NCBI GenBank assembly: GCA_903909465.1
Contig: CAIVVQ010000073.1
Coordinates: 1 to 53,161, forward strand
DNA length: 53,161 nucleotides
Origin: an uncultured Opitutia bacterium
GTDB lineage: Bacteria > Verrucomicrobiota > Verrucomicrobiia > Opitutales > UBA953
Direction of reading: 5' to 3'
This document shows, piece after piece, positions 26,380 through 49,684 of this stretch (positions are counted from its first letter, which is position 1; the number at the start of each line of letters is the position of its first letter). The position numbers were made by a program, and so were the translations under genes. The notes beneath the pieces are model-generated. The model had not been told where the DNA came from. It made no database searches and saw only the letters and a list, made by a program, of their open reading frames with translations.

Positions 26380-26428
26380 GTGAGATTAAAAAGGGTTGGG
26401 GGCGGACAGGGCAAAGCACTACCAGCAA

Positions 26429-27154: not shown

Positions 27155-27158
27155 CTGA

Positions 27159-27785: not shown

Positions 27786-28012
27786 GAAACGTGTGGAGCG
27801 AGTTTAATTAAATCACGAGGGGTTAAACAAGCCCTCACCTGTGGGCCTGACAGGTAGACATGGTGTACGTGCTCAAAGTGACTAATCACCAAGAGGACTG
27901 CCAACGAGTCCCACTGCGACAAGGATGCCAGCGGGGCATCAAGCGTGGCTTCAGCTAAAGCGTCGACTTCAGACTGAAGGGCACGAAATTGTTTTTCGGT
28001 CACGTCACTCAT
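27782..28012 (-). CDS. Acyl carrier protein-like
   Basis: 76 aa; LASLSQWDSLAVLLVISHFEHVHHV with the D-S-L phosphopantetheine context; ATGA overlaps on both sides. Confidence 0.75.
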   Translation of the reverse strand: MSDVTEKQFRALQSEVDALAEATLDAPLASLSQWDSLAVLLVISHFEHVHHVYLSGPQVRACLTPRDLIKLAPHVS

Positions 28013-29085
28013 GGGGAAGCGGGGTACGGCTGAATCGGCGCAAGGATGAGAGGGCCCACTTCACCGGCAAAGGCACCCCAAGAGAGTCCGACGCCGAAGC
28101 CACAGCCCGCAAGCTTTAGGGGCTTCTGCGAAAGTGCATCGCCCAGGGCGTCGATTAAAGCACAGGGAATGGATGCTGAACTTTGGTTGCCGAATTTTTC
28201 GACAATTCCCGCCGGGGCCTTGTCTTTCGCAAAACCAACTTTCAGGGCGACTGATTCGACGATGAATTTGTTAGCTTGGTGTAAAATGAGCGCATCCGTC
28301 GACGCCACGGTATACCCGCCGTGCTGCATCACCGATTGTATGGCCGGGGGAATTTCACGTAGTGAAAAATTAAAAATCTCGGCGCCATCCAAGTGTAAGT
28401 TTTCAGCGTGATGCAGATTGCCGCTGGTATCGGCCGTTTCGATGCGGGTTAATTCGCTCGCAGGCTGACGAGCCCCACCCGCTGGCACGATAATAGATGA
28501 TGCGCCTTTTCCGTCGGCACCGAAAATAAAGTGCATGGGATTAGGCTGGCCTGTGCGTTCAACAATTGTGGCAGAACCAGCGTCGCCAAACAGTGGGTCG
28601 GCGGCACGGTCATTTTTGTTAGTGAGATGACTAAGGGTGTCGCCCGCGCAAAGTAAAACGCGTCCCGCACCGCCGTGCGCACAGAGCAAAGCGGCTTGAT
28701 GAAGTCCCGTCACCCATCCCGCACAGCCTTGAGCCAGATCGAAGGCCAAAGTCGACTTACTGAGCCCGAGTCGACCGTGCAACAATGAGGCGTTGTTCGG
28801 CTGGGAATGGTCCGGAGTTTGGGTTACAAAAATAATCGCATCGATGGATGAGGCATCGAGATTCATTTCACTTAAGAGGCGACGAGTGGCATCCTCGCAA
28901 AGATCCAAGGCGGTGACATCCGGGGTTGATACCATGCGATCACGAAGCCCGATAGTTTTGGCGACGCGCTCGAGTTGGGCCATCGGGATTCCATTGGCCT
29001 GTCCGTCAGCGATGAAACTGCGTCGGACTGAACCCGTCGAGACACTCAAACCTGCGATGCGGAAGTGATTGATTAAGGAATGCAT
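28009..29085 (-). CDS. 3-oxoacyl-ACP synthase III (KAS III / FabH-like)
   Basis: AFDLAQGCAGWVTGL (Cys), LILHQANKFIVE (His), KFGNQSSASIPCAL (Asn): full Cys-His-Asn triad. Confidence 0.92.
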   Translation of the reverse strand: MHSLINHFRIAGLSVSTGSVRRSFIADGQANGIPMAQLERVAKTIGLRDRMVSTPDVTALDLCEDATRRLLSEMNLDASSIDAIIFVTQTPDHSQPNNASLLHGRLGLSKSTLAFDLAQGCAGWVTGLHQAALLCAHGGAGRVLLCAGDTLSHLTNKNDRAADPLFGDAGSATIVERTGQPNPMHFIFGADGKGASSIIVPAGGARQPASELTRIETADTSGNLHHAENLHLDGAEIFNFSLREIPPAIQSVMQHGGYTVASTDALILHQANKFIVESVALKVGFAKDKAPAGIVEKFGNQSSASIPCALIDALGDALSQKPLKLAGCGFGVGLSWGAFAGEVGPLILAPIQPYPASP

Positions 29086-29093
29086 GGTGGGGG

Positions 29094-30425
29094 TTAGGGT
29101 CGTAATTTTTTCAGCCGCGTGGAAACAATCGAGGGGACAAAATTTATACGCGTTGGCACCTTGTATGCGGATAGAGTTGAGCGACAGGTTACACGAATCA
29201 AGGCCCTTAGCTTTTCCGGGTCTTCTGCCGATTGAGCAACCACTTCGGCTGCCACAGTTTGGCCTACAATCGAATTTTTTTCCCCGAAGACGCGACAGTC
29301 AATGACACCTGGGGTATTTAAAATCGCCGACTCTACTTCAGTGGGCATCACTTTCTCGCCACCCACGTTGATGAGCTCGCCCGTTCGGCCCAAGACGCAC
29401 AAAGTGTTGCCAGGCCCACGCTCTACCCTGTCGCCCGTACGGAACCAGCCATCGTCGGTAAAGGCTTCGTTAGAAGCATTCAGGTAACCGGGGACTTGGG
29501 TTTTGGAGCGTAACCAAAGTTCGTCGTTAATAATTTTCCATTCCACATTTTCGTCATCGATGGAGATGAATGTCGAATCGGGGTTGGGGCTAGAGATTTT
29601 AAGAATGCCCGTCTCGCTGGTTCCAAAGGTTTGTATTAAGCGGGCATGCCCAAAGGTTTCGCGGAGGCGATGTAAGAGGATTAACGGCATGGGCTCGGTG
29701 CCGTAAGTAATGAGCCGCAGTGAAGGCAAATGAGTCTCACCTGAGACTAATAAAAGATTAAGGAATGTAGGGGTCGCTGGGAGCACAATGACACCATGCT
29801 TGCGAATGGCTTCGGCCACACAGCGGGGGGCCCGACTCTCCGGAACAACCAACAGTGCACCTGCACTGAGTGCACCCAGTAAAGTATTAATGCCGCCGAT
29901 GTGATCGCCGCCCATCATGGCGATGATTGGCAGGTGGCTTTCACGGCGGGCTCGATACGTCTCCCACAAAATTGTGAAATCTTGAACCATTGCCTTCGGG
30001 GTGCCACTCGTGCCGCTCGAAAATAAAATCAGCCCGGCATGCTTTTTTTCCACCAGGTAGCCCAGAAATGACGGGGCAGCCGACTCATCCACGCGGGGGA
30101 GTAATTTCCATTTTAATCCATCGAGAAACACAATCCATTGTACGTGTACTTGTGCTAGTTTTTTGGGGTGTTCAGCGGCGTCTCCTGCGAGCGGCACAAT
30201 AAAGTGCTGATGTGCAGCCAGCGCAACGAGCCAAGCCACCAAGGCGGGGCTTTGTTCACCGATAATGGCAAAGGCGGTTGGGCCCTTTAGATTAAGCGCA
30301 CCCAACTCTCTGTCCGCCACGTCAACGAGCTGCAGTAAATCTGTGTAGCTTACTTCGCCGAAAGGCCCAGCCAGTGCGGGACGGTCTTTAAAGGTTTTAA
30401 ATCGTTCGAGAATCCAAGCGGACAT
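29094..30425 (-). CDS. AMP-dependent synthetase/ligase (acyl-ACP/acyl-CoA ligase-like)
   Basis: GLILFSSGTSGTPKAMVQDF, QTFGTSETG, GWFRTGDRVERGPGNTLCVLGRTGELINVGGEKVMPTEVESAIL. Confidence 0.9.
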   Translation of the reverse strand: MSAWILERFKTFKDRPALAGPFGEVSYTDLLQLVDVADRELGALNLKGPTAFAIIGEQSPALVAWLVALAAHQHFIVPLAGDAAEHPKKLAQVHVQWIVFLDGLKWKLLPRVDESAAPSFLGYLVEKKHAGLILFSSGTSGTPKAMVQDFTILWETYRARRESHLPIIAMMGGDHIGGINTLLGALSAGALLVVPESRAPRCVAEAIRKHGVIVLPATPTFLNLLLVSGETHLPSLRLITYGTEPMPLILLHRLRETFGHARLIQTFGTSETGILKISSPNPDSTFISIDDENVEWKIINDELWLRSKTQVPGYLNASNEAFTDDGWFRTGDRVERGPGNTLCVLGRTGELINVGGEKVMPTEVESAILNTPGVIDCRVFGEKNSIVGQTVAAEVVAQSAEDPEKLRALIRVTCRSTLSAYKVPTRINFVPSIVSTRLKKLRP

Positions 30426-30468
30426 ATAAATATTTCTGTTGCTCCTGCCCTAAAATAAGAACCGACGC

Positions 30469-31167
30469 TCAGCGCGATTGGATCTGCGCAAGGTAGCGAA
30501 TAGATCCGGGAACCGGATTGGCCTGCTGAATCGCTTCTAAGATAAAGTCTGCCGCCTCCTGGAGGCTTGTGCCATTCGGTCGACCAATACGTTCATTCAG
30601 ATGCTGAAGCTTGTTACCGTCGACGGCTTGAGTGAGCTTGGTCGGCACAGGTCCAAAGCCAAGGCCGACAACTGTGACACCTTGGGAGCTTAATTCCTTC
30701 CCGGCGACTTGGGTTAAAGCGTCAAGCGCCGCCTTACTTGCCACATAGGCCGCCTCCCCCTCTAAGGCCAACGGCACCGCCACGGTTGTAATATTAATAA
30801 TAAGGCCGCGTCGTTGCCGCACCATTTGTTTGCCGACGGCTTGGATGCAATGGAAGGCGCCAAGGTAATTCACTTGCATCAAATTTTCTGCAACCTTGCT
30901 TGGCGTTAATAATAAGGCGTTCATGGAAGCCGCCCCCGCATTATTGATAAGCAAATCAATGCCTTGATTGTTAGCTGTAGCTACCGCGACGGCATTTTGA
31001 ACGGACGATACTTGGGTCACATCAACTCGATGATCTACAAAATGAGGGTGGGCGATTTCTGATGGCTGACGGGAAAAGCCGTGCACGTGCCACCCGGCGG
31101 TAAGTAGTTTAAGTACGACAGCTTTGCCGAGACCCTCGGAGGAGCCCGTGATAATTGCGGTAGGCAT
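30469..31167 (-). CDS. SDR-family oxidoreductase (3-oxoacyl-ACP reductase-like)
   Basis: AIITGSSEGLGKAVVLKLL, LLINNAGAASM, AAYVASKAALDALTQVAGKEL. Confidence 0.88.
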   Translation of the reverse strand: MPTAIITGSSEGLGKAVVLKLLTAGWHVHGFSRQPSEIAHPHFVDHRVDVTQVSSVQNAVAVATANNQGIDLLINNAGAASMNALLLTPSKVAENLMQVNYLGAFHCIQAVGKQMVRQRRGLIINITTVAVPLALEGEAAYVASKAALDALTQVAGKELSSQGVTVVGLGFGPVPTKLTQAVDGNKLQHLNERIGRPNGTSLQEAADFILEAIQQANPVPGSIRYLAQIQSR

Positions 31168-31189
31168 GTTTAGTTAGAATAGTTTCTAC

Positions 31190-31489
31190 TCATCCTGCAT
31201 TCACCACTTCGATGATGTAGTCGGCCAATAAATTAACACGGCGAAATGGTGAGGTTAGGCGGCTCATGGCTTTTTCGTCGGCAAGCGCCACGCGGGCACC
31301 GCATTCGCGATAAATATCCTCCTCCAGATCGGAAATAAGTGTCACCAATCCCATGCTATCTAAGGCCGCACCATCGCCAAACAGTCGGGTCTGCTCATCG
31401 GCCGTAAGCAATGAGGGTCGGTCGAGCTCTTGGCCCAGCGCTCGAAGGCGCTTAAGCACTAGGGCTAAACTTTGGGGACGCGTCATCAT
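31190..31489 (-). CDS. Acyl carrier protein-like (second)
   Basis: 99 aa; LFGDGAALDSMGLVTLISDLEEDI, with DSM(G) phosphopantetheine context. Confidence 0.78.
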   Translation of the reverse strand: MMTRPQSLALVLKRLRALGQELDRPSLLTADEQTRLFGDGAALDSMGLVTLISDLEEDIYRECGARVALADEKAMSRLTSPFRRVNLLADYIIEVVNAG

Positions 31490-31490
31490 A

Positions 31491-32150
31491 TCAAATAAGT
31501 AAAATAAGTTCGTCGAGGCTCGAAATAATCTGCTGGGGCTGACCCAGGGGCGCCGCAGGGGTATTGCGATACTGTCCCTCGTGCCGTCGCACTTGAACGG
31601 TTCGCCAGCCTAATGCGTTGGGAGCGATAAAATCTTTACTGGCATTATCAGCTACATACATGAAATTTTCTCTGGGGTGCCTTTGCATCACTAGCTCAAA
31701 AGCTTTAGGCGAAGGCTTCCAGAACTCCCGCCCGAGCGCCTCAGTGAAAACAGGTTCAGGAATCCAGCGCTCAATGCCAAGGGCCTTAGCCTTGTTGCTT
31801 TGGGTGGGCAAAAAGCCGTCGCTAATTAAGGCAAGCGGGTGCGATTGACTGATGGCCTGCATCGCTCGCAAAGCATCAGGGAACCACGGCAAGGCAATGG
31901 GTGCATGCGTTCGATAGACTTGTAATAGCTCATGGACCTGTTCGATCGTCATCGGCTCGCGCTCGAGCCGCAGAAAGGCTTCTTGGAAAATACCCTTCCT
32001 TTGACCCGCCTGAAACAATGCAATCGCTTGGTCCGCAAACCCCGCTACTCCCCATTTTTTTAATGCATAGTCTCCGGCTGTCGCCAAGGCCGAGAGCACA
32101 AACGCATGCTCCGGGAACAGCGTGTCGTCCATATCAAATACTACTACCAT
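31491..32150 (-). CDS. HAD-superfamily hydrolase
   Basis: MVVVFDMDDTLFPE, LALISDGFLPTQSNKAKALG, KPSPKAFELVMQ. Confidence 0.9.
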   Translation of the reverse strand: MVVVFDMDDTLFPEHAFVLSALATAGDYALKKWGVAGFADQAIALFQAGQRKGIFQEAFLRLEREPMTIEQVHELLQVYRTHAPIALPWFPDALRAMQAISQSHPLALISDGFLPTQSNKAKALGIERWIPEPVFTEALGREFWKPSPKAFELVMQRHPRENFMYVADNASKDFIAPNALGWRTVQVRRHEGQYRNTPAAPLGQPQQIISSLDELILLI

Positions 32151-33196: not shown

Positions 33197-34159
33197 CTAA
33201 ATTTTTTTGAAGACAGCCGCATCGTAACGTAACATAGCTAAACCGTCTTGCCAGTTATTGTGAGCCGTCGATGGCCGGCACAAAGCTTCTTCGATAATCC
33301 ACTTCCCGAAAGTGGCCCCTGCAGCATGAGCGAGAGGGTAGCCGCCACCAAAGCGGGCGTTGATTTCGAAAACCTTAGCTCCCGTTGATGTCAAAATCAC
33401 CTGGAAGCAAAATGGGCCGCGCAACCCGGGCACCGCCTGTACGATTTGTTCAGCCAACTTTTGCAGGTCTTCCCTTCTCTCCGTCACGGCCTTGCTCACT
33501 TCCCCAGCCCGAGTCTCAATGCGACGATGCGGAACAGCGGCACGTAATCGACCATTAAGATCCGCAAAGCAGTTCACCGTGTATTCGGGGCCTTCGAGCT
33601 TCTCTTGGGCGACATAACATGGCGCCTCGAGGTTAAGCGCTCGTAGCTCAGATAGATCATGGGCAACGTGTATCCCGATAGAACTGCTTCCGTCGACTCG
33701 CTTAAGAATTAAAGGGAAGTTAAGCGAGGCCGCACCCGAAAGGAAATCGGCTAGGCGAGCAGTGCGGGGCGATGGTACGTTCGCTTGAATCAAAACGTCG
33801 GCGGTGAGTTGCTTATCGCGGGCGACCCTAACCGCTGCCGAATCAGAAACTACAAGGTGCACGCCTGCCTGGCGGAATTGTTCGTGTGCTGCGCTTAATA
33901 TGGACAACTCCGTATCAATGGTAGGAATGAGAATCTTGACATGTTGCGTGCGACAAATTGTTAAAATCCGCTCAACGTATTCCGGCTCGGTACAACGCGG
34001 AACGGCAAAAGAGGCCGCCGCCCATTGGCAAGCGGCACTGAGCTGGGGCGTTGAATCAGCCGCAAGAATTTGCGCCGCCAATCCCAGTTGATGGGCGTCA
34101 TGCAAGAAGGTTTTGCCTAATTCAACTCGGCGGCCCGAGGAGGTGATACAGATATTCAT
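33197..34159 (-). CDS. ATP-grasp family protein (carbamoyl-phosphate synthase large subunit-like)
   Basis: MNICITSSGRRVELGKTFL, FPLILKRVDGSSSIGIHVAHD, VAQEKLEGPEYTVNCFAD, KVFEINARFGGGYPLAHAAG. Confidence 0.88.
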   Translation of the reverse strand: MNICITSSGRRVELGKTFLHDAHQLGLAAQILAADSTPQLSAACQWAAASFAVPRCTEPEYVERILTICRTQHVKILIPTIDTELSILSAAHEQFRQAGVHLVVSDSAAVRVARDKQLTADVLIQANVPSPRTARLADFLSGAASLNFPLILKRVDGSSSIGIHVAHDLSELRALNLEAPCYVAQEKLEGPEYTVNCFADLNGRLRAAVPHRRIETRAGEVSKAVTERREDLQKLAEQIVQAVPGLRGPFCFQVILTSTGAKVFEINARFGGGYPLAHAAGATFGKWIIEEALCRPSTAHNNWQDGLAMLRYDAAVFKKI

Positions 34160-37326: not shown

Positions 37327-38529
37327 TCAGGGAATGAGTGCTAAAACTTTTTGGGCTTCACTGAGGTTGCCATAATCACGACTCGCCGCCGTGGCCGCCA
37401 GTCGATTGCGGAGTTCGACATCACGAGATAGTAGCGTAATCGCCCCTACGAGGCCATCGACACCGGCTGAAGCAATGTAGCCATCCACATTGTGTTCAAG
37501 TTGGCTACTGGCGGTGGAGAAATTCGAGATAAGCACAGCCTTACCAAGCATTTGGGCTTCGCGGACAGCAACCGCCTTTCCTTCATAGCGGGAGGGTTGG
37601 ACATATAGATCGCAAGCTTTCATGTATGGATAAGGATTGGTGCGCTTGCCGAGTAGAATGAAATTATCACCGAGGCGCTGTTCGGCAATTATTCGACGCA
37701 ACATGGGCTCGTCAGGTCCGTAGCCCATAATATACCACCGCACCTTCACGCCACTATCGAGTAACTTTCGGCAAGCCAGAGCGGCGAGTTCGAATGCTTT
37801 TTGGTGTGTGTATCGTCCGGCCGAACATAGTACCAAAGTCTGGTCATCTTTTATCATATCCGAAGGCGGGTAATTAATAAGCGCCTGGGTGCGTACGAAA
37901 TTGGGGGCTAATAAGTTTTCGATGACGACAAGTTTTGGCTTTTGCTCTATAAAAACTTTCCCGAACGAGGTTGCGACATCTGGAGAGACGGCGACGATTA
38001 CATCCATCGCGGCCCATGCCGGCTGCTCGACGGCAAGGTTAACGCCCGACTCAACGGCGGTATAGTCAGTATGAATCCACCCAACCTTACGTCGGGCGTT
38101 AACCTTCCGCCAGACGGTGTCGTGAGGCGTAAGAAACCCAATGGCTAAATCATACGCACCGGGGATTTGTGGCAAAAACAGCTGGGCGTAAGCATGTGAG
38201 CGCGACAGGAGGAATCCGGGAGTCATTCCCAGTTTCAACATTAGCTCTGAGACCATTCTTGCGGTTAGGCGAGCGAATCCAATCAGCGGATTGCGGAAAA
38301 AAAGCGCGCGCGACTGTGGCCCGTCGAGACGGGCGTATTCGGGAGCTTCGGGAAGCAGCCTTACCCACTTAGGAATCATGGGCAGAAACTCACCTTTATG
38401 CTCGTACAGAAAAATGGTTACTTCGCAGCGAGCAGGGTCCAGCGACTCCAGTAAGCCGATCAGGCTTCGCTCCACCCCGCCAATTTCCATGGCGTGCGTG
38501 ACGATTAAGATTCGGGGCTTTTTGGTCAT
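37327..38529 (-). CDS. Glycosyltransferase family 4
   Basis: RILIVTHAMEIGGVERSLIGLLESLD, LVLCSAGRYTHQKAFELA, DLYVQPSRYEGKAVAVREAQMLGKAVLISNF. Confidence 0.92.
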   Translation of the reverse strand: MTKKPRILIVTHAMEIGGVERSLIGLLESLDPARCEVTIFLYEHKGEFLPMIPKWVRLLPEAPEYARLDGPQSRALFFRNPLIGFARLTARMVSELMLKLGMTPGFLLSRSHAYAQLFLPQIPGAYDLAIGFLTPHDTVWRKVNARRKVGWIHTDYTAVESGVNLAVEQPAWAAMDVIVAVSPDVATSFGKVFIEQKPKLVVIENLLAPNFVRTQALINYPPSDMIKDDQTLVLCSAGRYTHQKAFELAALACRKLLDSGVKVRWYIMGYGPDEPMLRRIIAEQRLGDNFILLGKRTNPYPYMKACDLYVQPSRYEGKAVAVREAQMLGKAVLISNFSTASSQLEHNVDGYIASAGVDGLVGAITLLSRDVELRNRLAATAASRDYGNLSEAQKVLALIP

Positions 38530-39239
38530 GCTTTAGAATTGGAAAAGTTTTTAAGTTTTCCGATAATTTTGGCAATAAATTGTCTGAGCTTTTTGCGCCA
38601 ACGCATCCCGGGGCTTGCCCATGAATGTTGATAGTGGTGGACGGCGACTGTGCTTGGATTGCGGTAATCGATATGCTGAATGTAATCTAAAGGCGAAAAG
38701 ACCTGCATCGGGTAAACCGTTGCCTGATCCGACAAGGTCTGCTTTTGGCCATTGCGCAACAAGCCGCGCGATTCCAAGAGCCTATTAACTACCCTCACGT
38801 TGGTCGTTTGATCAATTGTCCCGTCGTGACGTAGAAAATGTCGTTCCTGATATTGTTTAAGGTAATCTCCAATCAGTGAATAGGCGGGAGCGCACCCAAT
38901 CGTACTGGTGGCAACATACTCGTTGGCCTCAAAACCCCAGAAGGCAACGTGATGAAGAAAAGGGTCTAGACGACCCACTAATTCAACATCGCAATCAAGG
39001 TAAACTCCGCCCATTTGCCACAAGGCGAGGCCTCGTGCGTAATCACTAACAAAAGCGAATTTGCGCTGAGCGTACGCTTCACGAACATAGTCGCAAACGT
39101 TGATGTCAAAATTCGTTTCGTTCCACTCTATGATTTCAAAGTCTGGATGCAGCTGGCGCCAGCCTTCGATATTTTTTAAGACATCAACAGGCTTGGGACC
39201 ACGGCCGAACCAGCAGTAATGGATAATTCGTGGTATCAC
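38526..39239 (-). CDS. GT32-family glycosyltransferase (capsular polysaccharide / OCH1-like)
   Basis: MIPRIIHYCWFGRGPKPVDV, FAFVSDYARGLALWQMGGVYLDCDVE. Confidence 0.9.
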   Translation of the reverse strand: MIPRIIHYCWFGRGPKPVDVLKNIEGWRQLHPDFEIIEWNETNFDINVCDYVREAYAQRKFAFVSDYARGLALWQMGGVYLDCDVELVGRLDPFLHHVAFWGFEANEYVATSTIGCAPAYSLIGDYLKQYQERHFLRHDGTIDQTTNVRVVNRLLESRGLLRNGQKQTLSDQATVYPMQVFSPLDYIQHIDYRNPSTVAVHHYQHSWASPGMRWRKKLRQFIAKIIGKLKNFSNSKA

Positions 39240-39247
39240 GGGTAGGT

Positions 39248-40213
39248 TTACCGAATCACGAAACCCTCGCAGGCAGCGCGAAGCTTGGCTGCTAATGGCT
39301 CATGCACGGTCAAATTTTTCGGGACAAAACTGCCATCAATCCGCCCCTTGAGTCCAAAGTTATTGGTCATGCTACCATCTGGAGCGATATCGATACGGTT
39401 AAAAAGTTCGAGCAAGCCATCAAAACGACAGGAGTCGACGTAGTCATCAAACGCATTGATAAAAATAACTGGCACGCCCATCGCTAAACACGGCAAGGCA
39501 CAATGGATCCGAGAAGTAACCACTAATTTTGCATCTGCATAATCACGTAAATAACTTTCCGCCCGCGTAAATTGTGCTTCCACAGTTACACCGGCAGAGG
39601 GCAATACGTGTCTCTTATGCTGCGCGCTTTTATGAAAATCGGGCGCAAAAATCTGCTTAAGTATGCGTTGTTTCTTGAGAATGCGCGCGGGCTCACCTTT
39701 ACGTAATCCGCGCAAGAAACGCTTCGGCGAGGCAAATAAATCGGGTAGGTCGGGGAAATTAAAGAGGGGGTCTACGATGTAACACTTTTCGCGGGTCGGG
39801 TTAGGATTACGGTAGCCACTTAAAGTCAGCGTTAGGCAGCCAGAAAAATAAGCGGCGATGCCGTGCGATTCTAAAACTCTGACCGTGTGACGATCGCGGC
39901 AACCAATCGGAGCGTGTTGTTTTAAATAGTTAATGCCTTTTTCGCTCAACATTCGGTCGGCCGCCGAGCTGTTTAAGTGAAACGAAACAAACAGCGGCTT
40001 GATTGCGGGTGATGGCACCCAGTTGCTGGGGTTGTGCGTGAACCAGCCGTTAAGGATGAGTTGCGTTTCGGGGCCGCTGAAATCGGCCATGGCCTCGCGA
40101 TTAACGAAGCTATCTACCTTCGGCAGGTACTGACGGGCAGCTAAACTTTGCACGTTGTCCCCCAGGTTATAAGTACCATGGGTCGGGGTGTAAGTGAGAA
40201 GTCCGTGTTGCAT
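39248..40213 (-). CDS. Polysaccharide pyruvyl transferase family protein
   Basis: TYNLGDNVQSLAARQYLP, KQHAPIGCRDRHTVRVLESHGI, DYADAKLVVTSRIHCALPCLAMGVPVIFI. Confidence 0.86.
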   Translation of the reverse strand: MQHGLLTYTPTHGTYNLGDNVQSLAARQYLPKVDSFVNREAMADFSGPETQLILNGWFTHNPSNWVPSPAIKPLFVSFHLNSSAADRMLSEKGINYLKQHAPIGCRDRHTVRVLESHGIAAYFSGCLTLTLSGYRNPNPTREKCYIVDPLFNFPDLPDLFASPKRFLRGLRKGEPARILKKQRILKQIFAPDFHKSAQHKRHVLPSAGVTVEAQFTRAESYLRDYADAKLVVTSRIHCALPCLAMGVPVIFINAFDDYVDSCRFDGLLELFNRIDIAPDGSMTNNFGLKGRIDGSFVPKNLTVHEPLAAKLRAACEGFVIR

Positions 40214-40217
40214 AAAA

Positions 40218-41510
40218 TCATTTAAGACGACGCAGGAGGCGCACCAAGCCGCGCCCTGCGTTATAAAAACGAGGGAAGCGAACGCAAATGATAAATTTCC
40301 ATCGAGCTAAATGGTCACGCCAAGGACGATGGTTACGCTCGAGGGCCCGATTAATTTCGCCGTCGGCCAGCCGCTTTAAGAAGTTTACCTCACTATCCCG
40401 ATCGGTGAGCACGAAAAAGTTTTCGTTCTTAAGGGCGAGACTGGCGGCCCGAGAAATCTCTTCCCAGAAAACCCTTAATCCTGCCGAGGCGCGAATCGTG
40501 GACAGGCGGGTAAATAATTGTGGGTAAGTTTCGGCGGTGAAGGGAAAGCCAAACGACCGCGGATCCACTCCAGCCAGAATTAAATTCATCATAGTGCGGT
40601 AACATTTTTCACAGCGACCACAGTTGCCATCGCGGGCGACCTCCGAATAGCAGACCCGAAGTTGAATGGATTCCTGGCGTTGCTGACAAAATGCAGCAAT
40701 TACTTCGGCCTTAGCCTGGCGACTCAGTTCGGCAGCGTCATGCACAACACTGAGCCCCCCCCACTTAATTTTCTCGTCGGCGGATTGAGTTGAACCCCAA
40801 ACCATCGGTACGTTATAGGATGAAGCAATGTAAGCTAAAGAGGCCCGGCGAATAAAGGATAGCGGGGCCAGTAATCCCAGTAGCCCGGGCCCATGCTGCA
40901 CCTTGCCCCACCAACCAAAAACCAAGGATGCTTCTACATTATCGTTATAAAATGTGCGCATGTTAGCCGTAATAGCTAAGTGGGGCAAACGACCCGAAAA
41001 AGGCTCAGTTTTAATGTGGTTAAGACAACGATGCCATTGGGTAGTATCGGTGATTTCAATGTCAGCCCCTAGAATTGTTACTAAATCTAGGTTTTCGCTA
41101 TGGTGGCGAATCAGCGTGGTGTAAGCGTCCATCCCACCACTAAAAAGCATCAATGATTTTGTGGCTGGCCAACTAATGGGGGCACTTCTTGGCGCCACCA
41201 AAACTCCAGTCAGCGGGTATCGCGGGTACATCCGCTGAAACTCTGCGCGTAGTTGCACAAGTGAGTCGGCAAAAGTTGCGTCAACCTCAGGTACTACCAA
41301 GTCAAACTTACCAAACCAGGCGAGGGTGATAAAGTTAGCGACAAATGGAATGATAGCGATGCCTGGCGGGCAGCTTGAAATGTCGTGATCGTAACGAACA
41401 AAAAAAGTTTCGTTAGGATTTAAAAACTTTTTCGCTGAACCAGTGGCAGTATAGTGGTAATCAATCCGTCGCCCGTTTTCTGAAAGTGTATAATTCCTTA
41501 AGGTAATCAT
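40218..41510 (-). CDS. PP-loop ATPase-like protein with QueC-like Cys cluster, in polysaccharide locus
   Basis: KSLMLFSGGMDAYTTLIRHH (PP-loop SGGxD), GNCGRCEKCYRTMMNLILAG (CxxCxxC). Confidence 0.6.
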   Translation of the reverse strand: MITLRNYTLSENGRRIDYHYTATGSAKKFLNPNETFFVRYDHDISSCPPGIAIIPFVANFITLAWFGKFDLVVPEVDATFADSLVQLRAEFQRMYPRYPLTGVLVAPRSAPISWPATKSLMLFSGGMDAYTTLIRHHSENLDLVTILGADIEITDTTQWHRCLNHIKTEPFSGRLPHLAITANMRTFYNDNVEASLVFGWWGKVQHGPGLLGLLAPLSFIRRASLAYIASSYNVPMVWGSTQSADEKIKWGGLSVVHDAAELSRQAKAEVIAAFCQQRQESIQLRVCYSEVARDGNCGRCEKCYRTMMNLILAGVDPRSFGFPFTAETYPQLFTRLSTIRASAGLRVFWEEISRAASLALKNENFFVLTDRDSEVNFLKRLADGEINRALERNHRPWRDHLARWKFIICVRFPRFYNAGRGLVRLLRRLK

Positions 41511-43015
41511 TGGCGAATTTTATTTAAGAACGACCAACCCATTAATTGCGTTAGAAAGTAAAGGCATGCGACCGAAGCTCCCGTAGCTAACACGAGGCCG
41601 ATTGACACCCGCATCCATGCTGATCCGACGAATGCGTGATTAAGCCAAAGGCCGATTAGCACCAGCGAGGACCAGAGCACGAGGAGCTTATTAGAGAGCG
41701 AAACCGACTGTCCCACCAGCGCGGGCAACACCATCGCTAAAACAATGCCCGAGCCAAGGTGGAGTGCGGTAAAGGCCCAACCGCATCCGATTAGTCCCAG
41801 CCGACTTGCGAAGAAGCTGATGAGTGCAAAACCCACCAGGGCCGAAATGACTTCCACCACAAAAATAGTTTTGCCCCTGCCCTTCGCCAATAAGGCCAGG
41901 CGCAGTGGCGCCGCCATGATGCGTCCGAGCACGCCGATAATCATGATACGCAGGACTTCAGCCGAAGGAGAGAAAGCAGACGAATAGAGCAGCGAAGTTG
42001 CCTGCTGTGACAAGACTGCCAGCCAGGCCAAAGCGGGGATCGAAAGCAGCAATGCGATACGTAACTGGGCGTTCATCTCTAGATTGAATCGCTCTGGCTC
42101 ATCCGCGTGGGCCACCAGTTTAGGGTAATAATCCGCTGACATGGCCGCCAAAACAAAAGTGACGGTGAAGCCAGCCAGAGAGAATGCGGCTTGATATTGG
42201 CCAACAGCGTCCAACCCTAAGTAGCGCAGGAGAATCACGCGTTCGACGTAAGGACTAAAAGTGCCGACTAGACCCGAAAGCATAATAGGCAGACCAAAAA
42301 CGATTAGTAATCGCGCCTCGGCTCGACTATCAGCGATGGAGCACGGCGCATCAGGAATCGGCACGCGCCGCGAAAACCACCAAGTGACGACTAAGGTGGC
42401 AGCGTAACTAAAAATCACCGCCAGCGCGATACCCGTCATGCCTAACCAATAGTAACAAGGTATTGCGATCAGCACTCCGGCAAAAGCCGAGCCGACGCTG
42501 ATGCGCATGTAATCGACCACTCGTCGCATGCCTTGAATAATACAACCCTGCCCAGTATAAAGTGCACGAAAGAGCACCGCTAAACCCAGACATGCAATGG
42601 GCCAAATGTATTTCGGTGCCTCACTCTCCCCAAAAGTCAGTCGAGCAATGACTCCACTCGTGAGAAGCATGAAGGCTGCTCCCGCCAAACCACTAATCCA
42701 AACGGTTCGACGTAGCGTTTGAACAATTCTTGATAGCCTTTGATCGTCGCCCGACGATGCGCTCGCTGCAATTTGCCGAATGCCGCTCGTGCCTAAGCCC
42801 AAACTAAAAGCCGCACCCACAACCTCGATGAGCTGCGTAAAAATTCCGGCTAAAGCGATGCCCGCCGGCCCAAGCCAAACGGCGATAAACTTATTACGCA
42901 CTAAACCGATCGCCATGTTCGCCAATGCTCCGCCCCCAACCAGCACGGTCTTGCGGAAGATATCAAAGAAATCAGGGGAGCCAGGTCCGGCGTCCTGCTT
43001 AATGGTTTCTGACAT
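41507..43015 (-). CDS. Wzx-type flippase / polysaccharide biosynthesis protein
   Basis: Multi-TM, 502 aa; GGALANMAIGLVRNKFIAVWLGPAGIALAGIFTQLIEVVGAAFSLGLGTSGIRQIA. Confidence 0.9.
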   Translation of the reverse strand: MSETIKQDAGPGSPDFFDIFRKTVLVGGGALANMAIGLVRNKFIAVWLGPAGIALAGIFTQLIEVVGAAFSLGLGTSGIRQIAASASSGDDQRLSRIVQTLRRTVWISGLAGAAFMLLTSGVIARLTFGESEAPKYIWPIACLGLAVLFRALYTGQGCIIQGMRRVVDYMRISVGSAFAGVLIAIPCYYWLGMTGIALAVIFSYAATLVVTWWFSRRVPIPDAPCSIADSRAEARLLIVFGLPIMLSGLVGTFSPYVERVILLRYLGLDAVGQYQAAFSLAGFTVTFVLAAMSADYYPKLVAHADEPERFNLEMNAQLRIALLLSIPALAWLAVLSQQATSLLYSSAFSPSAEVLRIMIIGVLGRIMAAPLRLALLAKGRGKTIFVVEVISALVGFALISFFASRLGLIGCGWAFTALHLGSGIVLAMVLPALVGQSVSLSNKLLVLWSSLVLIGLWLNHAFVGSAWMRVSIGLVLATGASVACLYFLTQLMGWSFLNKIRQ

Positions 43016-43020
43016 TTAGA

Positions 43021-44214
43021 TTAGCAGGTGACTGCCGACGCACATTGAGGGCCGACGGTGAGGATTGCGGCCTCATCCCGGGGGCCTGCATCCATTCGCG
43101 TTCCAGTAAAAAGAATTTGTGCGGCTCCAAGAGTTGGGCGTACATCACTATATAAACAACCCGACAGAGAAAAGAGCGGAGTAAGCGGCGCGTGTTTTAT
43201 CGGGCGATGGATTAGTTTATTAATAATCGCCCGCATTCTGAGATGCAGCGACCCTGGCAGGCTTTCTCTTTCATTCTCACGCCGCAGAATAATTTCTGCC
43301 CAGGTATAAATTTCTAAAACTAAAAGCGGGTTGCTCATTGTGCCATCGGTGAGTTGGCCGGCGCTAGAAATTATTTTTCGGCCACGATTAATTAAGCATT
43401 CCAAGCCCTCTGATCGCCAGACGTCGGCTTGAGGTAATTGGGGCCAAAGCGCTCCAGCGGTAAATAACGCCAGTGAAACAGTGAGCCCCTTGCATGCAGA
43501 ATGTGTATACGAATAGTCGTGTGTTAATTCTAAGCGTTTGGCTGAAACTAGAATGAGGCGCGCGGCGCCTGCGAGTCGCTCATCAGAGGCGGAAGAATGA
43601 AAGCAAAAAGCTTGGGCGGCAAAAGTTACCGCCAAGATGCGCCGAGCAATGGCTTCATCGCTTACCCACTGCGGACCAAGGTTGGGAGGGTTTTTCTCCA
43701 TCCAATCTTCTAATAAACTCCAGAATGCTTCAGCGTGCGCGTCATCGCCACTGACGATCCAGGCGCGCACCAGGGGATAGGCCCAATTAAACTGGGAGGC
43801 CTCATTTATTGCCGACGCGGTCGAATCAACATCCGCGGAAACCTTCGACCAATGCATGCCGGCGCTCTCCTGTTGATTACGATTCCAATCAACCGGGAAG
43901 CCCAAGTTAATAAATTGGTTATTCGCTAAACGGAATTGGCCCACCGCAATTGCTTTGGCCTCTGCTTCAGGAGAACACCCAAGCGTAACCGAAAATTGCT
44001 CAAGGTGTGGCGCCAGGTATTGACGCTCGAGCAGTGCAATCGGCAGGCGAGGCGCCTTAGACTGCCACTTGGCAATAAAATCGGCCTGCTCACCTGGCAG
44101 TGGCGGAATAAGTGACCAGGGTTGGGTCGGGGACTGACGATCAAAAATACCGACGGCGCGCTTGCACTCAAACCAAGCGTTTGAAATCAGTTGGCCTGCG
44201 CTAATGATCGTCAT
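43021..44214 (-). CDS. Heparinase II/III-like protein, apparently only the N-terminal alpha-toroid portion
   Basis: FNWAYPLVRAWIVSGDDAHAEAFWSLLEDWMEKNPPNLGPQWVSDEAIARRILAVTFAAQAF; stops at 397 aa without an obvious C-terminal beta-sandwich domain. Confidence 0.6.
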   Translation of the reverse strand: MTIISAGQLISNAWFECKRAVGIFDRQSPTQPWSLIPPLPGEQADFIAKWQSKAPRLPIALLERQYLAPHLEQFSVTLGCSPEAEAKAIAVGQFRLANNQFINLGFPVDWNRNQQESAGMHWSKVSADVDSTASAINEASQFNWAYPLVRAWIVSGDDAHAEAFWSLLEDWMEKNPPNLGPQWVSDEAIARRILAVTFAAQAFCFHSSASDERLAGAARLILVSAKRLELTHDYSYTHSACKGLTVSLALFTAGALWPQLPQADVWRSEGLECLINRGRKIISSAGQLTDGTMSNPLLVLEIYTWAEIILRRENERESLPGSLHLRMRAIINKLIHRPIKHAPLTPLFSLSGCLYSDVRPTLGAAQILFTGTRMDAGPRDEAAILTVGPQCASAVTC

Positions 44215-44219
44215 GGAGG

Positions 44220-45890
44220 TCAGGCCTTCTCATTGGTTTGATTACCCTCACGCAGCGAATCGTCGACGAGGCTAATCATTAAAGCCGAAATAAAGGCGAC
44301 CGAGAATAGCAAGGGGGTAAACCACGCAGGGAAATCAATTGCCATATTGAAGAGGAAAAGCACCAACACGCCGGCGAGTGGAATCGACTCGGGGTGGCCG
44401 CGCTTCAATGTTTTGAGGGCCCACGCGAGAAACCAAATAAGGCCAGATGCCACAATGGTTACCCCAATAATGCCCCACTCTGCCAGCATCTGAAGCCAGT
44501 CACAGTGTGCATAGGTGGCGCGCAACAATAACTTTCCTCTTTGGTCCAGTAGCGCCTTTTCTTGCGCCTGGAAGTAGGGCGAAACCCACCGATAGGATCC
44601 AGCGCCCCAACCTGTCCAGAGTCGGCCAGCGCCACTTGTAGTGGCCATCGTCCAAGTACTGTGACGCCAAGGTGAACGTGCGTCGGACTTAGTTTGTTTA
44701 TATGAATTAATCTTTGAGTCTAACTTGGCTTCAATATTTTTTAGATTGCTCGAAAATAAGAAGACGAAAATGAAGGTGATGACAAGAATGAGCGCCAGCG
44801 AACTGCGCCTGCCGTACTGACCCACTGCGGCGGGCATACCCAAAAAGAAGGCTGTCGGGGCGATAAGTAGAAACAAGGTTAAGGCTAAGGCCGAAGCCGC
44901 AACGCTGTAGGTTAATAACGTAGCACAAACCAAAAGGAGGCTGAAAAAAATTGCGATGAGATGCGGACTGCCCCGATTGGCGCTATTCTGATTCCGCCGA
45001 TAATGCCAAAATGCCAAAGCAACAGCGACGGCAGACTGAAGGTAAAAATAAACGCCCGCGTGATTTCGATAAATGAAAGGGCCAAACGGAGCTGCGCCGG
45101 CGGGGACCGGGAACCCCATTGCGCTTTCGCCGAAATTCGGCTGATGAGTGAATCCGTAGCCTGCGATGATGATCGCACTGACAACGCTTAGCCAACCAAG
45201 CATCACGTAGCCACGGCGACGAAGCAGGCCCACACGAAGCGCGCAGAACAGCAACCACGGCCCAGCGAAAATCGCAATTGTTCGCCAAGCATTCATCCCG
45301 CCGGGATCCGTCTCATCTGACGCAAATGGGGCACTTAAACCGCTCGGCAGCCACTTAATTGAATCCTCTTTGGCAATTCTCCAAAATAAATCGCGCTCCG
45401 CCACTCTGCCCCATGGGTTCAGTCCTTGCACTGCGAAATAAGAGAAGAGGGCCAACCCAATCCAGAATATTGGCTGACGCATTAGGGCGTAGAACGACTC
45501 GGCTGCGCTCAATGATTTAATGTCATCCCGCAATAAAGCCGCCGCGACCGTCTGACCGAAAAGCGCGGCCAAGGGAAAAGCCATTGCTTCCAGCCACTGA
45601 CTGCTAATGACCGTGGCGATTTCGGGAACGCCCCAGGCATTGAATACGAGCAAGCCAAACCAAACGCTTACACCTATAATTTGTACGCGGTAATCTCCGA
45701 CGGCAGCAATGAGCGCCGAGAGCGCCAAGCCCAAGGTGAAATAGGTACACCAGACAACGACGCCTCCCCAGGCCCAAGGCATGAATAGGAGTAGCACCGC
45801 CGAAATAGTAGCTACCGCTAATTCGCGTGGCGTTAAACGCGGGCGCCGAGCTTTGGGTGAATTAAAATAGAGGTGCTTGGACGAAATCAT
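44220..45890 (-). CDS. O-antigen ligase / Wzy_C family membrane protein
   Basis: 556 aa multi-TM; APFGPFIYRNHAGVYFYLQ, GAGSYRWVSPYFQ...YAHCDWLQMLAEWGIIG motif. Confidence 0.88.
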   Translation of the reverse strand: MISSKHLYFNSPKARRPRLTPRELAVATISAVLLLFMPWAWGGVVVWCTYFTLGLALSALIAAVGDYRVQIIGVSVWFGLLVFNAWGVPEIATVISSQWLEAMAFPLAALFGQTVAAALLRDDIKSLSAAESFYALMRQPIFWIGLALFSYFAVQGLNPWGRVAERDLFWRIAKEDSIKWLPSGLSAPFASDETDPGGMNAWRTIAIFAGPWLLFCALRVGLLRRRGYVMLGWLSVVSAIIIAGYGFTHQPNFGESAMGFPVPAGAAPFGPFIYRNHAGVYFYLQSAVAVALAFWHYRRNQNSANRGSPHLIAIFFSLLLVCATLLTYSVAASALALTLFLLIAPTAFFLGMPAAVGQYGRRSSLALILVITFIFVFLFSSNLKNIEAKLDSKINSYKQTKSDARSPWRHSTWTMATTSGAGRLWTGWGAGSYRWVSPYFQAQEKALLDQRGKLLLRATYAHCDWLQMLAEWGIIGVTIVASGLIWFLAWALKTLKRGHPESIPLAGVLVLFLFNMAIDFPAWFTPLLFSVAFISALMISLVDDSLREGNQTNEKA

Positions 45891-45898
45891 TTATGAAA

Positions 45899-46873
45899 TT
45901 ATACTAAACCAGCCTGATAGATATCATGAATACGCAAGAGGCCGAGACAGCGTCCACTCTTGGCGTCAACCACAGGAAGCACGGAAATCTGCGATGGGCG
46001 ATCTTCCATAATGCGCGCAGCTTCGGCCAACGAAACGGCGGGGTGAGTTTGCACAGGCTTACGCGTCATCACGTCGCCTGCGGTGGCAGTGTTGAGGTCA
46101 ACTCCACGACTGAGGGCGCGACGCAAGTCGCCATCGGTAATCAAACCAAGCAACACACCAGCTGAATCTAAGACACATGCTGCACCGTGTGGGTGAGAAG
46201 TCATCGCGATAACGGTTTCGCGGAGATTCGCGGTGGGCGCAACTTTTGCACAACGATCAAGAGGCTGAAATGCTTCGGCAACCGTGAGTGTTAAATTGCG
46301 GCCAAGCTGGCCGGCCGGATGGAGGCGCGCGAAATCGCTTTGGCTGAATCCTCGCTTCGTCATGAGGGCGGCGGCTAATGCGTCACCCAACGCGAGCGTG
46401 AGCAATGCACTGGTAGTTGGAACCAAACCAAGCGGATCGGCTTCGGGGCGAGCCCCAATATCGAGGACGAAGTCGGCTTGGGCGCCGAGAACGGACTGCG
46501 TGTTACCGACAATTGCGATAATGGGAGACTGGAAATTGCGGAACACGGGGAGCAGTCGCACGGCTTCAGCGGTCGCACCGGAACGAGAAATTAAAATAAC
46601 GGGGTCGCCCGCCTGAAGGATGCCAAGGTCGCCATGAACGGCATCAGCCGCGTGGAGAAAGATGGCGGGCGTGCCTGTGCTGCAGAGTGTAGCGGCAATT
46701 TTTTGGGCGATGAGTCCGGATTTTCCGACGCCGCAGAGAATGACTTTACCGGAGTGTGCCGCAATGAGGTCGACCACTTTAGTGAACGTGCCGTCAAGGC
46801 GCGTAGCGAGCTCAGCGAGGGCGGCGGCTTCGGTGGCAAGTAATGCCTTGGCGGATTCGAGGGGGGTTTTCAT
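45899..46873 (-). CDS. kdsD: D-arabinose-5-phosphate isomerase (KpsF/GutQ family; SIS + CBS)
   Basis: GKVILCGVGKSGLIAQKIAATLCSTGTPAIFLHAADAVHGDLGIL, LHPAGQLGRNL, CBS pair GLITDGDLRRAL. Confidence 0.93.
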   Translation of the reverse strand: MKTPLESAKALLATEAAALAELATRLDGTFTKVVDLIAAHSGKVILCGVGKSGLIAQKIAATLCSTGTPAIFLHAADAVHGDLGILQAGDPVILISRSGATAEAVRLLPVFRNFQSPIIAIVGNTQSVLGAQADFVLDIGARPEADPLGLVPTTSALLTLALGDALAAALMTKRGFSQSDFARLHPAGQLGRNLTLTVAEAFQPLDRCAKVAPTANLRETVIAMTSHPHGAACVLDSAGVLLGLITDGDLRRALSRGVDLNTATAGDVMTRKPVQTHPAVSLAEAARIMEDRPSQISVLPVVDAKSGRCLGLLRIHDIYQAGLV

Positions 46874-46877
46874 AAAT

Positions 46878-47609
46878 TTATTTAATAAGTAGTCGGGCCG
46901 CTTCTAGGTCTTGAGCGGTATCAATGGCGACGGGATGGTATTGCGTGACGACCGTCTGGAAAGTCATGCCGTGTGCCAGAAAGCGCAGTTGCTCGAGCGA
47001 CTCAGCGGCTTCGAGTTCAGTGGCGGCGAGTTTAGCATAACCGCCGACCGTGGCCCGATCGTAGCCGTAAACGCCAATGTGCGACCAGTAGTCGCGCTGC
47101 TTGACCCACTCCGTTATTTCAACACCGCGCAGGAACGGAATGGGGCTGCGCGAAAAATAAATGGCTTCACCGTTTTCAGCGCGGACGACTTTGACAACGC
47201 TTGAAGACTGCAAGCGTTCGGTCTGAGTAATTTTTGAGACCGCCGTGACGAGTCGGCACTTCGTTTCCCTCCAACGCGTGATGAGTTGGTCAAGCAAGTC
47301 GGGCTCAATGAATGGCTCATCGCCTTGAACATTGAGAAAGAATTCTCCAGGCAATTGACCCAAAATACTCGCGATGCGAGCGGTGCCCGAAGGGCAATCG
47401 GGCGAAGTCATGATGACTTCGGCGCCAAAGCCGCGTGCAACTTTCGCGACTTCTTCCGCATCGGTTAAAATAACAACGCGGGTGGCTTGCTTAACTTTTT
47501 TCGCACGCTCCCAAACATGTTGGACCACGGGCTTACCGCCCAAATCAAGCAAGACCTTGCGCGGGAGACGCGTAGAGCCGAGACGAGCGGGGATGCAGAT
47601 GATGGGCAT
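46878..47609 (-). CDS. kdsB: 3-deoxy-manno-octulosonate cytidylyltransferase
   Basis: MPIICIPARLGSTRLPRKVLLDLGGKPVVQHVWERAKK, GEFFLNVQGDEPFIEPDLLDQLI, YFSRSPIPFLR. Start at ATG 47609; the upstream ORF extension is the repeat at 47621-47670. Confidence 0.95.
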   Translation of the reverse strand: MPIICIPARLGSTRLPRKVLLDLGGKPVVQHVWERAKKVKQATRVVILTDAEEVAKVARGFGAEVIMTSPDCPSGTARIASILGQLPGEFFLNVQGDEPFIEPDLLDQLITRWRETKCRLVTAVSKITQTERLQSSSVVKVVRAENGEAIYFSRSPIPFLRGVEITEWVKQRDYWSHIGVYGYDRATVGGYAKLAATELEAAESLEQLRFLAHGMTFQTVVTQYHPVAIDTAQDLEAARLLIK

Positions 47610-47620
47610 GACTATAATTG

Positions 47621-47670
47621 AGTGGGCGCGTGGACAAGTTGGCAGGTGGGCGGAGGGGCCAACATGCCAC
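47621..47670 (-). repeat. C-rich octamer-phased dispersed repeat
   Basis: Reverse strand reads TCCGCCCA CCTGCCAA CTTGTCCA CGCGCCCA; same octamer phasing as other copies. Confidence 0.5.
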
Positions 47671-47677
47671 AAACATT

Positions 47678-48622
47678 TTATCCCTTTCGGGCGGTTTCTA
47701 AATTTTTAAGGTACCAAGCGTAGACGCTGGCAATTCCTTGTTGAAGTGGAATTTTACGCTTCCATCCAAGGGCGGCGATACGCGTGTTATCCATAATCTT
47801 TCGTGGGGTGCCGTCGGGTTTAGTCGCGTCAAATTTGAGTGTGCCTTTAAATTCCACCACGCGTGCGACGGCTTCGGCTAATTCACGAATGGTGAGCTCT
47901 TCACTTGAACCAACATTGATGTGACCCGCTTCGGAGTATTGATTCAGCAACATCACGCAGGCCTCGGCTAAATCATCGACGTGTAAGAATTCGCGCAGTG
48001 GCTTGCCGGTGCCCCAAAGTGTCAACGAATCATCTCCCCGTAATTTAGCTTCGTGCATTTTACGGACCATCGCCGGGAGCACGTGAGAGTTTTCTAAAGC
48101 AAAATTATCTTCCGGGCCGTAGAGGTTGCTCGGCATCGCGCTAATAAAATCGCAGCCGTATTGCTGGCGAGCGTGGGTACAAAGCTTGATGCCGGAAATT
48201 TTCGCAATCGCGTACGCTTCGTTCGTTGCTTCTAGGGGCCCTGTCAGCAAGGCGGATTCTTTGATCGGTTGCTCTGCCAATTTTGGGTAAATGCAGCTCG
48301 AGCCGAGAAAAAGTAATTTACGTACTTTGGTTTGACGGGACGCCTCGATGACATTGGCAGACATCATTAAGTTGTCGTAAAGAAAGTCGTACGGCGCGGT
48401 TGAATTGTAATGAATGCCACCGACGCGTGCGGCAGCCATAATCACATAGGCGGGCTTTTCGGCAGCGAAGAATGCCTGGACGGCAGTTGCATCGCGCAAG
48501 TCGAGCTCCTGTGATGTGCGACCGATGATTTGCGTGTGACCGGCAGCCTTGAGCGCGCGGATCAACGCAGAGCCCACCATGCCCCGGTGGCCGGCCACAT
48601 AAATTTTAGCAGCGCGGTCCAT
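47678..48622 (-). CDS. fcl: GDP-L-fucose synthase
   Basis: KIYVAGHRGMVGSALIRALKAAGH, AARVGGIHYNSTAPYDFLYDNLMMSANVIEA, LGSSCIYPKLAEQPIKESALLTGPLEATNEAYAIAKI. Confidence 0.96.
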   Translation of the reverse strand: MDRAAKIYVAGHRGMVGSALIRALKAAGHTQIIGRTSQELDLRDATAVQAFFAAEKPAYVIMAAARVGGIHYNSTAPYDFLYDNLMMSANVIEASRQTKVRKLLFLGSSCIYPKLAEQPIKESALLTGPLEATNEAYAIAKISGIKLCTHARQQYGCDFISAMPSNLYGPEDNFALENSHVLPAMVRKMHEAKLRGDDSLTLWGTGKPLREFLHVDDLAEACVMLLNQYSEAGHINVGSSEELTIRELAEAVARVVEFKGTLKFDATKPDGTPRKIMDNTRIAALGWKRKIPLQQGIASVYAWYLKNLETARKG

Positions 48623-49684
48623 TTAGCGGTACTTGTGCGTGAGCGCTTTAATGTCGCTGTCGACCATGCGGTGCACGAGCTGCTCGAAGGAAGTTTGTTG
48701 CGGATTCCACTTCAGCTCACGAATCGCTTTCGCGGGGTTACCAAGGAGTTGCTCGACTTCAGTCGGACGGAAGTAACGTGGGTCGACGGCGACGAGTCTG
48801 CGTCCGGTTTTCTTATCGATGCCTTTTTCGTCGGCTCCCTTGCCCTTCCATTCTAATTCAATGCCGGCACGCTTGAACGCGTGGTCACAGAATTCGCGCA
48901 CCGTATACATCTTGCCCGTAGCGATAACGAAATCGTCAGGTTGGTGATGTTGCAAAATAAGCCACATGCATTGTACGAAGTCGGGGGCGTAGCCCCAATC
49001 GCGCTGTTCGGATAAATTGCCGAGGAAGAGACAATCTTGGCGACCGAGCACAATATTAGCGACGGCGAGACTGATCTTGCGCGTGACGAACGTTTCGCCG
49101 CGGCGTTCGGATTCGTGATTAAACAAGATACCGTTACTGGCAAACATGCCGTAGGCTTCGCGGTAATTGCGCGTGATCCAGTAAGCGTAAATCTTCGCCA
49201 CACCGTATGGGCTGCGTGGGTAAAAAGGTGTGGTCTCGGATTGAGGCACTTCCAGGACCTTGCCGTAGAGCTCGGAGGTGGACGCCTGATAGATGCGAAC
49301 CTTCTTTTCGAGTTTAAGAATACGAATCGCTTCCAGCAAGCGAAGCGTGCCAACGCCATCGGTGTCGGCCGTGTATTCGGGGATCTCGAAAGAAACCTTC
49401 ACGTGTGACATGGCGCCGAGATTATAAATTTCGTCGGGCTGCACTTCGCCAATGATGCGAATGAGGTTGGTGCTGTCGGTTAAGTCGCCATAATGAAGTT
49501 GAATCTTCTTGTCGTGAATATCGCGGACTAAGTCCTCCATGTAGAGGTGCTCAATGCGCTCGGTATTGAAGCTCGATGAGCGACGGAGCAGGCCGTGAAC
49601 CTCGTAGCCTTTCTCGAGTAAAAATTCGGCGAGGTAGGACCCGTCTTGTCCGGTGATACCGGTGATCAGTGCACGTTTTTTCAT
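48623..49684 (-). CDS. gmd: GDP-mannose 4,6-dehydratase
   Basis: [119 protein letters not shown]. Confidence 0.97.

Follow-up and report, generated by a model that had tools for sequence, protein, structure and literature searches.

Enzymes of the PP-loop superfamily generally spend ATP on converting an acyl oxygen to its adenylate; pyrophosphate leaves, and a nucleophile then attacks. QueC combines a carboxylate with ammonia, and Cap9 joins one to a protein N-terminus (PMC13329287). Protein modification is the role of the QueC-fold enzyme Cap9 and the proposed role of QatC, which has the same fold (PMC13279940, PMC13329287). Canonical QueC proteins carry a signature composed of the motifs YxQxHxxE, VPxRN and YPDC, each of which includes at least one residue needed for queuosine formation (PMC13329287). 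Within surface-polysaccharide synthesis, O-antigen formation depends on WbpG, a zinc protein with a PP-loop (PMC10607449; PMC13329287), and the ketal-pyruvyltransferase CsaB binds phosphoenolpyruvate through an RxH motif (PMC10435577). A 2026 survey of the QueC superfamily was built from members of PF06508 (PMC13329287).

The window, by which we mean the whole 53,161-nucleotide stretch of DNA analysed, contains an operon encoding a 430-amino-acid protein. The first-pass annotation had placed this open reading frame between a pyruvyl transferase and a Wzx flippase, an arrangement confirmed by matches to PF04230 and to PF13440/PF01943. The genes of the operon are as follows.

37327..38529 (-), GT4 glycosyltransferase (domain match)
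38526..39239 (-), DXD glycosyltransferase (Gly_transf_sug, Pfam domain)
39248..40213 (-), PF04230 polysaccharide pyruvyltransferase (PS_pyruv_trans, E 1.4e-15; RxH phosphoenolpyruvate-binding motif kept as TSRIH)
40218..41510 (-), putative QueC-like PP-loop/zinc protein (430 aa, ATG start)
41507..43015 (-), Wzx/MOP flippase (PF13440/PF01943)
43021..44214 (-), heparinase II/III N-terminal-like protein (domain match)
44220..45890 (-), O-antigen ligase/polymerase (Wzy_C, domain match)
45899..46873 (-), SIS+CBS domain protein (KdsD/KpsF-type arabinose-5-phosphate isomerase, name inferred from domains)
46878..47672 (-), cytidylyltransferase (KdsB-type, enzyme name inferred)
47678..49684 (-), epimerase and GDP-mannose 4,6-dehydratase pair (GDP-fucose type pathway)

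The start of the QueC-like gene overlaps the end of the flippase gene by 4 bp (ATGA), and its own end is separated by 4 bp from the PF04230 gene downstream, which is followed in the same operon by the two glycosyltransferase genes. Upstream lie the heparinase-like and O-antigen ligase/polymerase genes, the Kdo-type SIS-CBS and cytidylyltransferase genes, and the GDP-fucose type pair. Orthologues in two related genomes are full-length with intact frames and are 66-68% identical to the window protein, with a dN/dS of approximately 0.11-0.15 between the window copy and the two orthologues; one of these genomes carries a tandem second copy. These conserved intact orthologues, the dN/dS values and the invariant residues of a 22-member alignment described below indicate that the reading frame is not a chance occurrence. 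Close relatives with names are Opitutae metagenome assemblies. Elsewhere in the window, a PylC-like/ATP-grasp protein, possibly a second carboxylate-amine ligase, is encoded in a neighbouring glycan cluster (33197-34159, minus strand), and genes for a DegT aminotransferase, a KAS III-like ketosynthase, an AMP-binding enzyme, and SDR and HAD proteins are clustered at 25255-32150 (minus strand), a combination that looks suited to making an unusual building block, either an acyl unit or an amino sugar.

The window protein can be divided into the following parts.

41166..41510 (-), N-terminal domain, aa 1-115 (family-wide conservation; its own AF2 model has pLDDT 93.9, pTM 0.86)
40545..41159 (-), QueC-like core, aa 118-322 (collinear with QueC over aa 118-321 by hhalign; Foldseek)
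41121..41144 (-), PP-loop FSGGMDAY, aa 123-130 (all 48 members keep F123, G126 and D128)
40602..40652 (-), four-cysteine site C287-x9-C297-xx-C300-xx-C303, with the family-specific NCxxCxKC (sequence)
40221..40544 (-), C-terminal helical tail, aa 323-430 (poor conservation; alignment and AF2 model)

The first-pass annotation had described a PP-loop, SGGMDAYT, and a QueC-like cysteine cluster, and both are present exactly as it gave them (aa 124-131 and, for CGRCEKCYRTMM, aa 297-308). To these can be added a fourth cysteine, C287, which makes the QueC-type site complete, with the spacing C(x)9CxxCxxC in the window protein versus C(x)8CxxCxxC in QueC; this spacing varies across the family. In the 22-member alignment, which was built from profile and tblastn matches and whose members were not chosen by the cysteine motif, GGxD, C287, N296, C297, C300, K302 and C303 are invariant. 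The sequence NCxxCxKC occurs in 147 of 148 family members versus none of 30 QueC orthologues. Many of the 148 were retrieved by the pattern NCGxCEKC, and conservation was therefore rechecked in an independent, profile-found set from the same phylum, where the motif is kept in 43 of 44 proteins. The PP-loop expression [ST]GGxD[SAC] matches 127 of the 148, with S/A variation at the last position (SGGMDA in the window protein); within the phylum set a PP-loop is present in 30 of 44, and some tandem copies lack it. The N-terminal domain (aa 1-115) gave no significant fold match in the PDB and no sequence match, and its identity with a known carbohydrate-binding fold was rejected on this lack of a PDB match.

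The resemblance to QueC is real; it is weak by sequence and finds support over the whole core from structure and profile comparison. Structure prediction, which the first-pass annotation had proposed as a check, yielded a confident AlphaFold2 model (pLDDT 94.0, pTM 0.91, from a 48-sequence alignment) with QueC proteins among its closest folds: in a Foldseek search of a viral structure library, the top matches were 7-cyano-7-deazaguanine synthases (prob 1.0). Fold matches in the PDB were ThiI, TtuA, argininosuccinate synthase, TrmU and Cap9, all with E-values above 0.01. The model and these matches place a PP-loop Rossmann fold in the window protein, and its predicted core has in common with QueC the four-cysteine site behind that fold, the order of the elements, and a post-cysteine helix with an AGVDP-like segment. 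By sequence, the Pfam QueC model (PF06508) scores 17.5 bits, below its cut-off of 22, and covers only the cysteine region. At E 0.01 it matches two of the 48 members (best 0.0014), and no Pfam family does better; no NCBIfam model matches any of the 48. BLASTP against the QueC of the same genome gave E 0.01 over 35 residues, and a PDB sequence search found nothing for the window protein itself; for the family profile it gave only chance-level matches to TilS and QueC. QueC is about 220 amino acids long, whereas the window protein has 430 and carries an extra N-terminal domain and C-terminal tail; QueC is encoded in queD/queE loci and the new family in glycan loci, and NCxxCxKC is an addition of the new family. 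We conclude that the enzyme belongs to a new QueC-like PP-loop/zinc family, the fold of which is predicted. As the family lies below the PF06508 cut-off, it would fall outside the 2026 survey (PMC13329287).

Another protein family displays the same layout. On a Priestia plasmid, a DUF6395 (PF19932) protein encoded at L038:19153-20469 (minus strand), a few kb from a member of the new family, combines an N-terminal domain with a PP-loop (YSGGVDS) and a C(x)8CxxCxxC site. DUF6395 is a separate Pfam family of unknown function, and the window protein falls below its cut-off; at E 0.01 its profile matches two of the 48 members (best 0.0088). Judging from this shared organization, DUF6395 is probably a sister family. 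It is not mentioned in the open-licence literature searched, in which we also found no published description of the new family.

A scan of species genomes with a nine-row alignment, which selects for NCGxCEKC, recovered at least 513 confirmed relatives in Bacteria and Archaea. The best-scoring 80 of these loci, a selection rich in haloarchaea, come from Acidobacteriota, Bacillota, Actinomycetota, Chloroflexota, Pseudomonadota, Campylobacterota and Verrucomicrobiota, and among archaea from haloarchaea, Bathyarchaeota and others. Within Verrucomicrobiota, the phylum of the window, 38 of 388 genomes have a match. Family matches also occur in 27 plasmid records, those among the matches listed being annotated as 'hypothetical protein', and annotated relatives are likewise called hypothetical. 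Viral contigs and phage records yielded no relatives, which argues against a phage connection. For hundreds of unannotated or hypothetical genes, a fold can thereby be predicted, the type of locus named and a partner enzyme assigned.

That partner emerged from the homologue neighbourhood survey suggested by the first-pass annotation, which covered approximately 120 loci (75 non-redundant non-haloarchaeal and 45 haloarchaeal, with genes called by a greedy script). The immediate neighbours of QueC-like genes are glycosyltransferases, PF04230 proteins and flippases, and homologues consistently outside glycan loci were not seen. PF04230, which includes the ketal-pyruvyltransferases CsaB and WcaK, is present in 32 of the 75 non-haloarchaeal loci. 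In 22 of them it is the direct neighbour of the QueC-like gene, when random placement of the PF04230 genes within the same loci would give 5.5 such cases on average; none of 20,000 permutations reached 22, relatedness being ignored. It is also the commonest neighbour family in the phylum set, followed by sugar-transfer ATP-grasp proteins and glycosyltransferases. ATP-grasp proteins were rejected as a universal partner, being found in few loci only. On a tree of 85 members, the well-supported branches call for no fewer than 11 changes in PF04230 presence, and the association thus recurs (or has repeatedly been lost) rather than marking a single clade. It is found in Bacteria and in non-halophilic Archaea, and the RxH motif is kept in all 23 of the adjacent PF04230 partners. 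In Azospirillum, the annotated stretch around the QueC-like/PF04230 pair contains no flippase gene and no further glycosyltransferase gene. PF04230 is absent from all 45 haloarchaeal loci. At some haloarchaeal loci (e.g., L053, L079 and L070), large Pfam-unmatched proteins recur beside the QueC-like gene, and a type I phosphodiesterase and Gfo/Idh/MocA oxidoreductases are also present.

The PF04230 proteins are different enzymes, and for them we claim association alone; in two genomes, this association extends to fusion with a glycosyltransferase and the QueC-like protein.

L193:5824-9228 (+), GT2 + PF04230 + QueC-like fusion
L214:1498-4884 (+), GT2 + PF04230 + QueC-like fusion

In one genome (G316), a single 1134-aa frame comprises Glycos_transf_2 (9-134), PS_pyruv_trans (360-599) and a QueC-like region (689-965, E 5.7e-51), and its full-length counterpart in the other (G467) is 52% identical. 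The presence of three activities on the same chain implies that they share a substrate or a pathway, and nothing else in our data speaks as strongly as these fusions for an action of the QueC-like enzyme on a growing or precursor glycan. They also offer a direct route to its function, the three activities residing on one polypeptide. With the surveyed loci, the excess of PF04230 adjacency and the fusions all supporting the link to glycan synthesis that had been proposed for the window protein, a glycan-tailoring role for the family is very probable.

Several other readings of the protein have to be weighed. The predicted QueC fold and the zinc motif might suggest a second QueC making preQ0, but the prospect is close to nil: the same genome has a separate full-length queC (G000:C152:1402-2019) with queD on the same contig, and YxQxHxxE, VPxRN and YPDC, found in 30 of 30 QueC orthologues, are each absent from all 148 family members. 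The first-pass annotation had favored a role outside tRNA modification and had advised looking for a bona fide queC in this genome; the queC is there, and the missing substrate motifs and the glycan neighbourhoods bear out the proposed role. Furthermore, the family is present in G080 and G146, two near-complete genomes that lack full-length queC and queD; this argues against a 7-deazaguanine substrate. A rival reading closer to glycan chemistry makes the protein an N-acetyl sugar amidotransferase of the WbpG/WbuX kind (TIGR03573), which would form an acetamidine by activating an amino sugar's N-acetyl carbonyl and adding ammonia. WbpG/WbuX shares with the window protein its superfamily, a PP-loop with zinc cysteines, and location in O-antigen loci. 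However, in WbuX homologues the cysteine pairs come ahead of the PP-loop (e.g., at 5 and 25 for CxxC and at 68 for the PP-loop), whereas those of the window protein follow it, and in hhalign the weak WbuX profile match is limited to the PP-loop region. TIGR03573 matches none of the 48 members at E 0.01, nor any protein of the same genome. We regard this amidine-forming reading as improbable. WbpG/WbuX enzymes work with a glutaminase partner of the HisH type; the lists of neighbour families of QueC-like genes, which give the top 25, contain none of this type, and no glutaminase family is prominent in them.

Only slightly less improbable than the amidine-forming reading is a role as a Cap9/QatC-type carboxylate-amine ligase, joining an amine-bearing molecule (an amino acid, an amino sugar, a protein N-terminus or a 7-deazaguanine) rather than ammonia to its partner. 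These anti-phage proteins set the precedent of a repurposed QueC core, the N- and C-terminal extensions of the window protein resemble those of QatC, and ATP-grasp ligases occur among the neighbours. The proteins differ in their other conserved motifs, and glycan rather than defence genes lie alongside the new family; with the deazaguanine version, the two genomes that lack queC and queD are again at odds. PADLOC models do not match the window protein, and one relative has a chance-level match to QueC. A PADLOC defence-system identity was rejected, there being no profile match and the neighbours being glycan genes. That ThiI and TtuA are the best PDB fold matches by E-value would suit a sulfur-transfer enzyme (ThiI/TtuA/LarE-like) delivering sulfur onto a glycan or carrier, but those E-values exceed 0.01, the TM-scores are low, and the cysteine spacing is of the QueC zinc type and not of the three-cysteine iron-sulfur type, making this activity highly unlikely. 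Nearly as hard to credit is a loss of PP-loop chemistry, in which case the protein would scaffold or chaperone the flippase or the pyruvyltransferase. The fusion to PF04230 and the several tandem copies that retain the cysteines and lack the PP-loop would fit such a role; the PP-loop is, however, kept in the window copy and most members (127/148), and GGxD is invariant across 22 diverse members.

As the best explanation, which we advance tentatively, a QueC-like glycan enzyme would adenylate a carboxylate, upon which an amide would form. Acting between glycosyl transfer and Wzx export in surface-polysaccharide synthesis, the enzyme would bind ATP through its PP-loop and adenylate the carboxylate (or an amide oxygen) of a lipid- or nucleotide-linked sugar, releasing PPi, as might be expected from its fold; an amine, most simply ammonia, would then displace AMP to give the amide. 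By analogy with characterized relatives, adenylation by the family is likely, and amide formation has somewhat less than an even chance; these gradings, like those given for glycan tailoring and for the pyruvate site, are judgements. The lack of a prominent glutaminase neighbour fits the use of free ammonia, as in QueC, or of an amine. Where ketal-pyruvyltransferases are partners, the leading candidate for the site would be, at a guess, a carboxylate belonging either to the pyruvate ketal or to an acidic sugar close to it within the repeat unit, and we think it doubtful that the pyruvate ketal is the site modified. The absence of PF04230 from the 45 haloarchaeal loci and from over half of the others indicates that pyruvate is not the general substrate; at the haloarchaeal loci in particular, the substrate must vary or be more general. 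It is similarly unlikely, arguing again from analogy, that Bacteria and Archaea share an ATP-dependent conversion of the pyruvate-ketal (or acidic-sugar) carboxylate to an amide, or to a nitrile as in the second step of QueC. The open-licence literature that we consulted does not describe an amidated pyruvate ketal. Should the product prove to be a surface sugar bearing an amide or nitrile, this would represent an uncharted, charge-masking glycan modification as well as a new function of the QueC fold.

Two or three QueC-like copies, mostly in tandem, occur in 14 of the 75 loci (e.g., L093, L107, L112 and L197), and in some of these multi-copy sets one copy lacks the PP-loop yet keeps NCxxCxKC. 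Their motif content suggests that tandem copies with and without a PP-loop represent active/inactive pairs, and part of the family may be non-catalytic. At another locus (L184:8572-11067, minus strand), an 831-aa protein consists of two fused QueC-like copies, the second with an altered PP-loop (GGGID).
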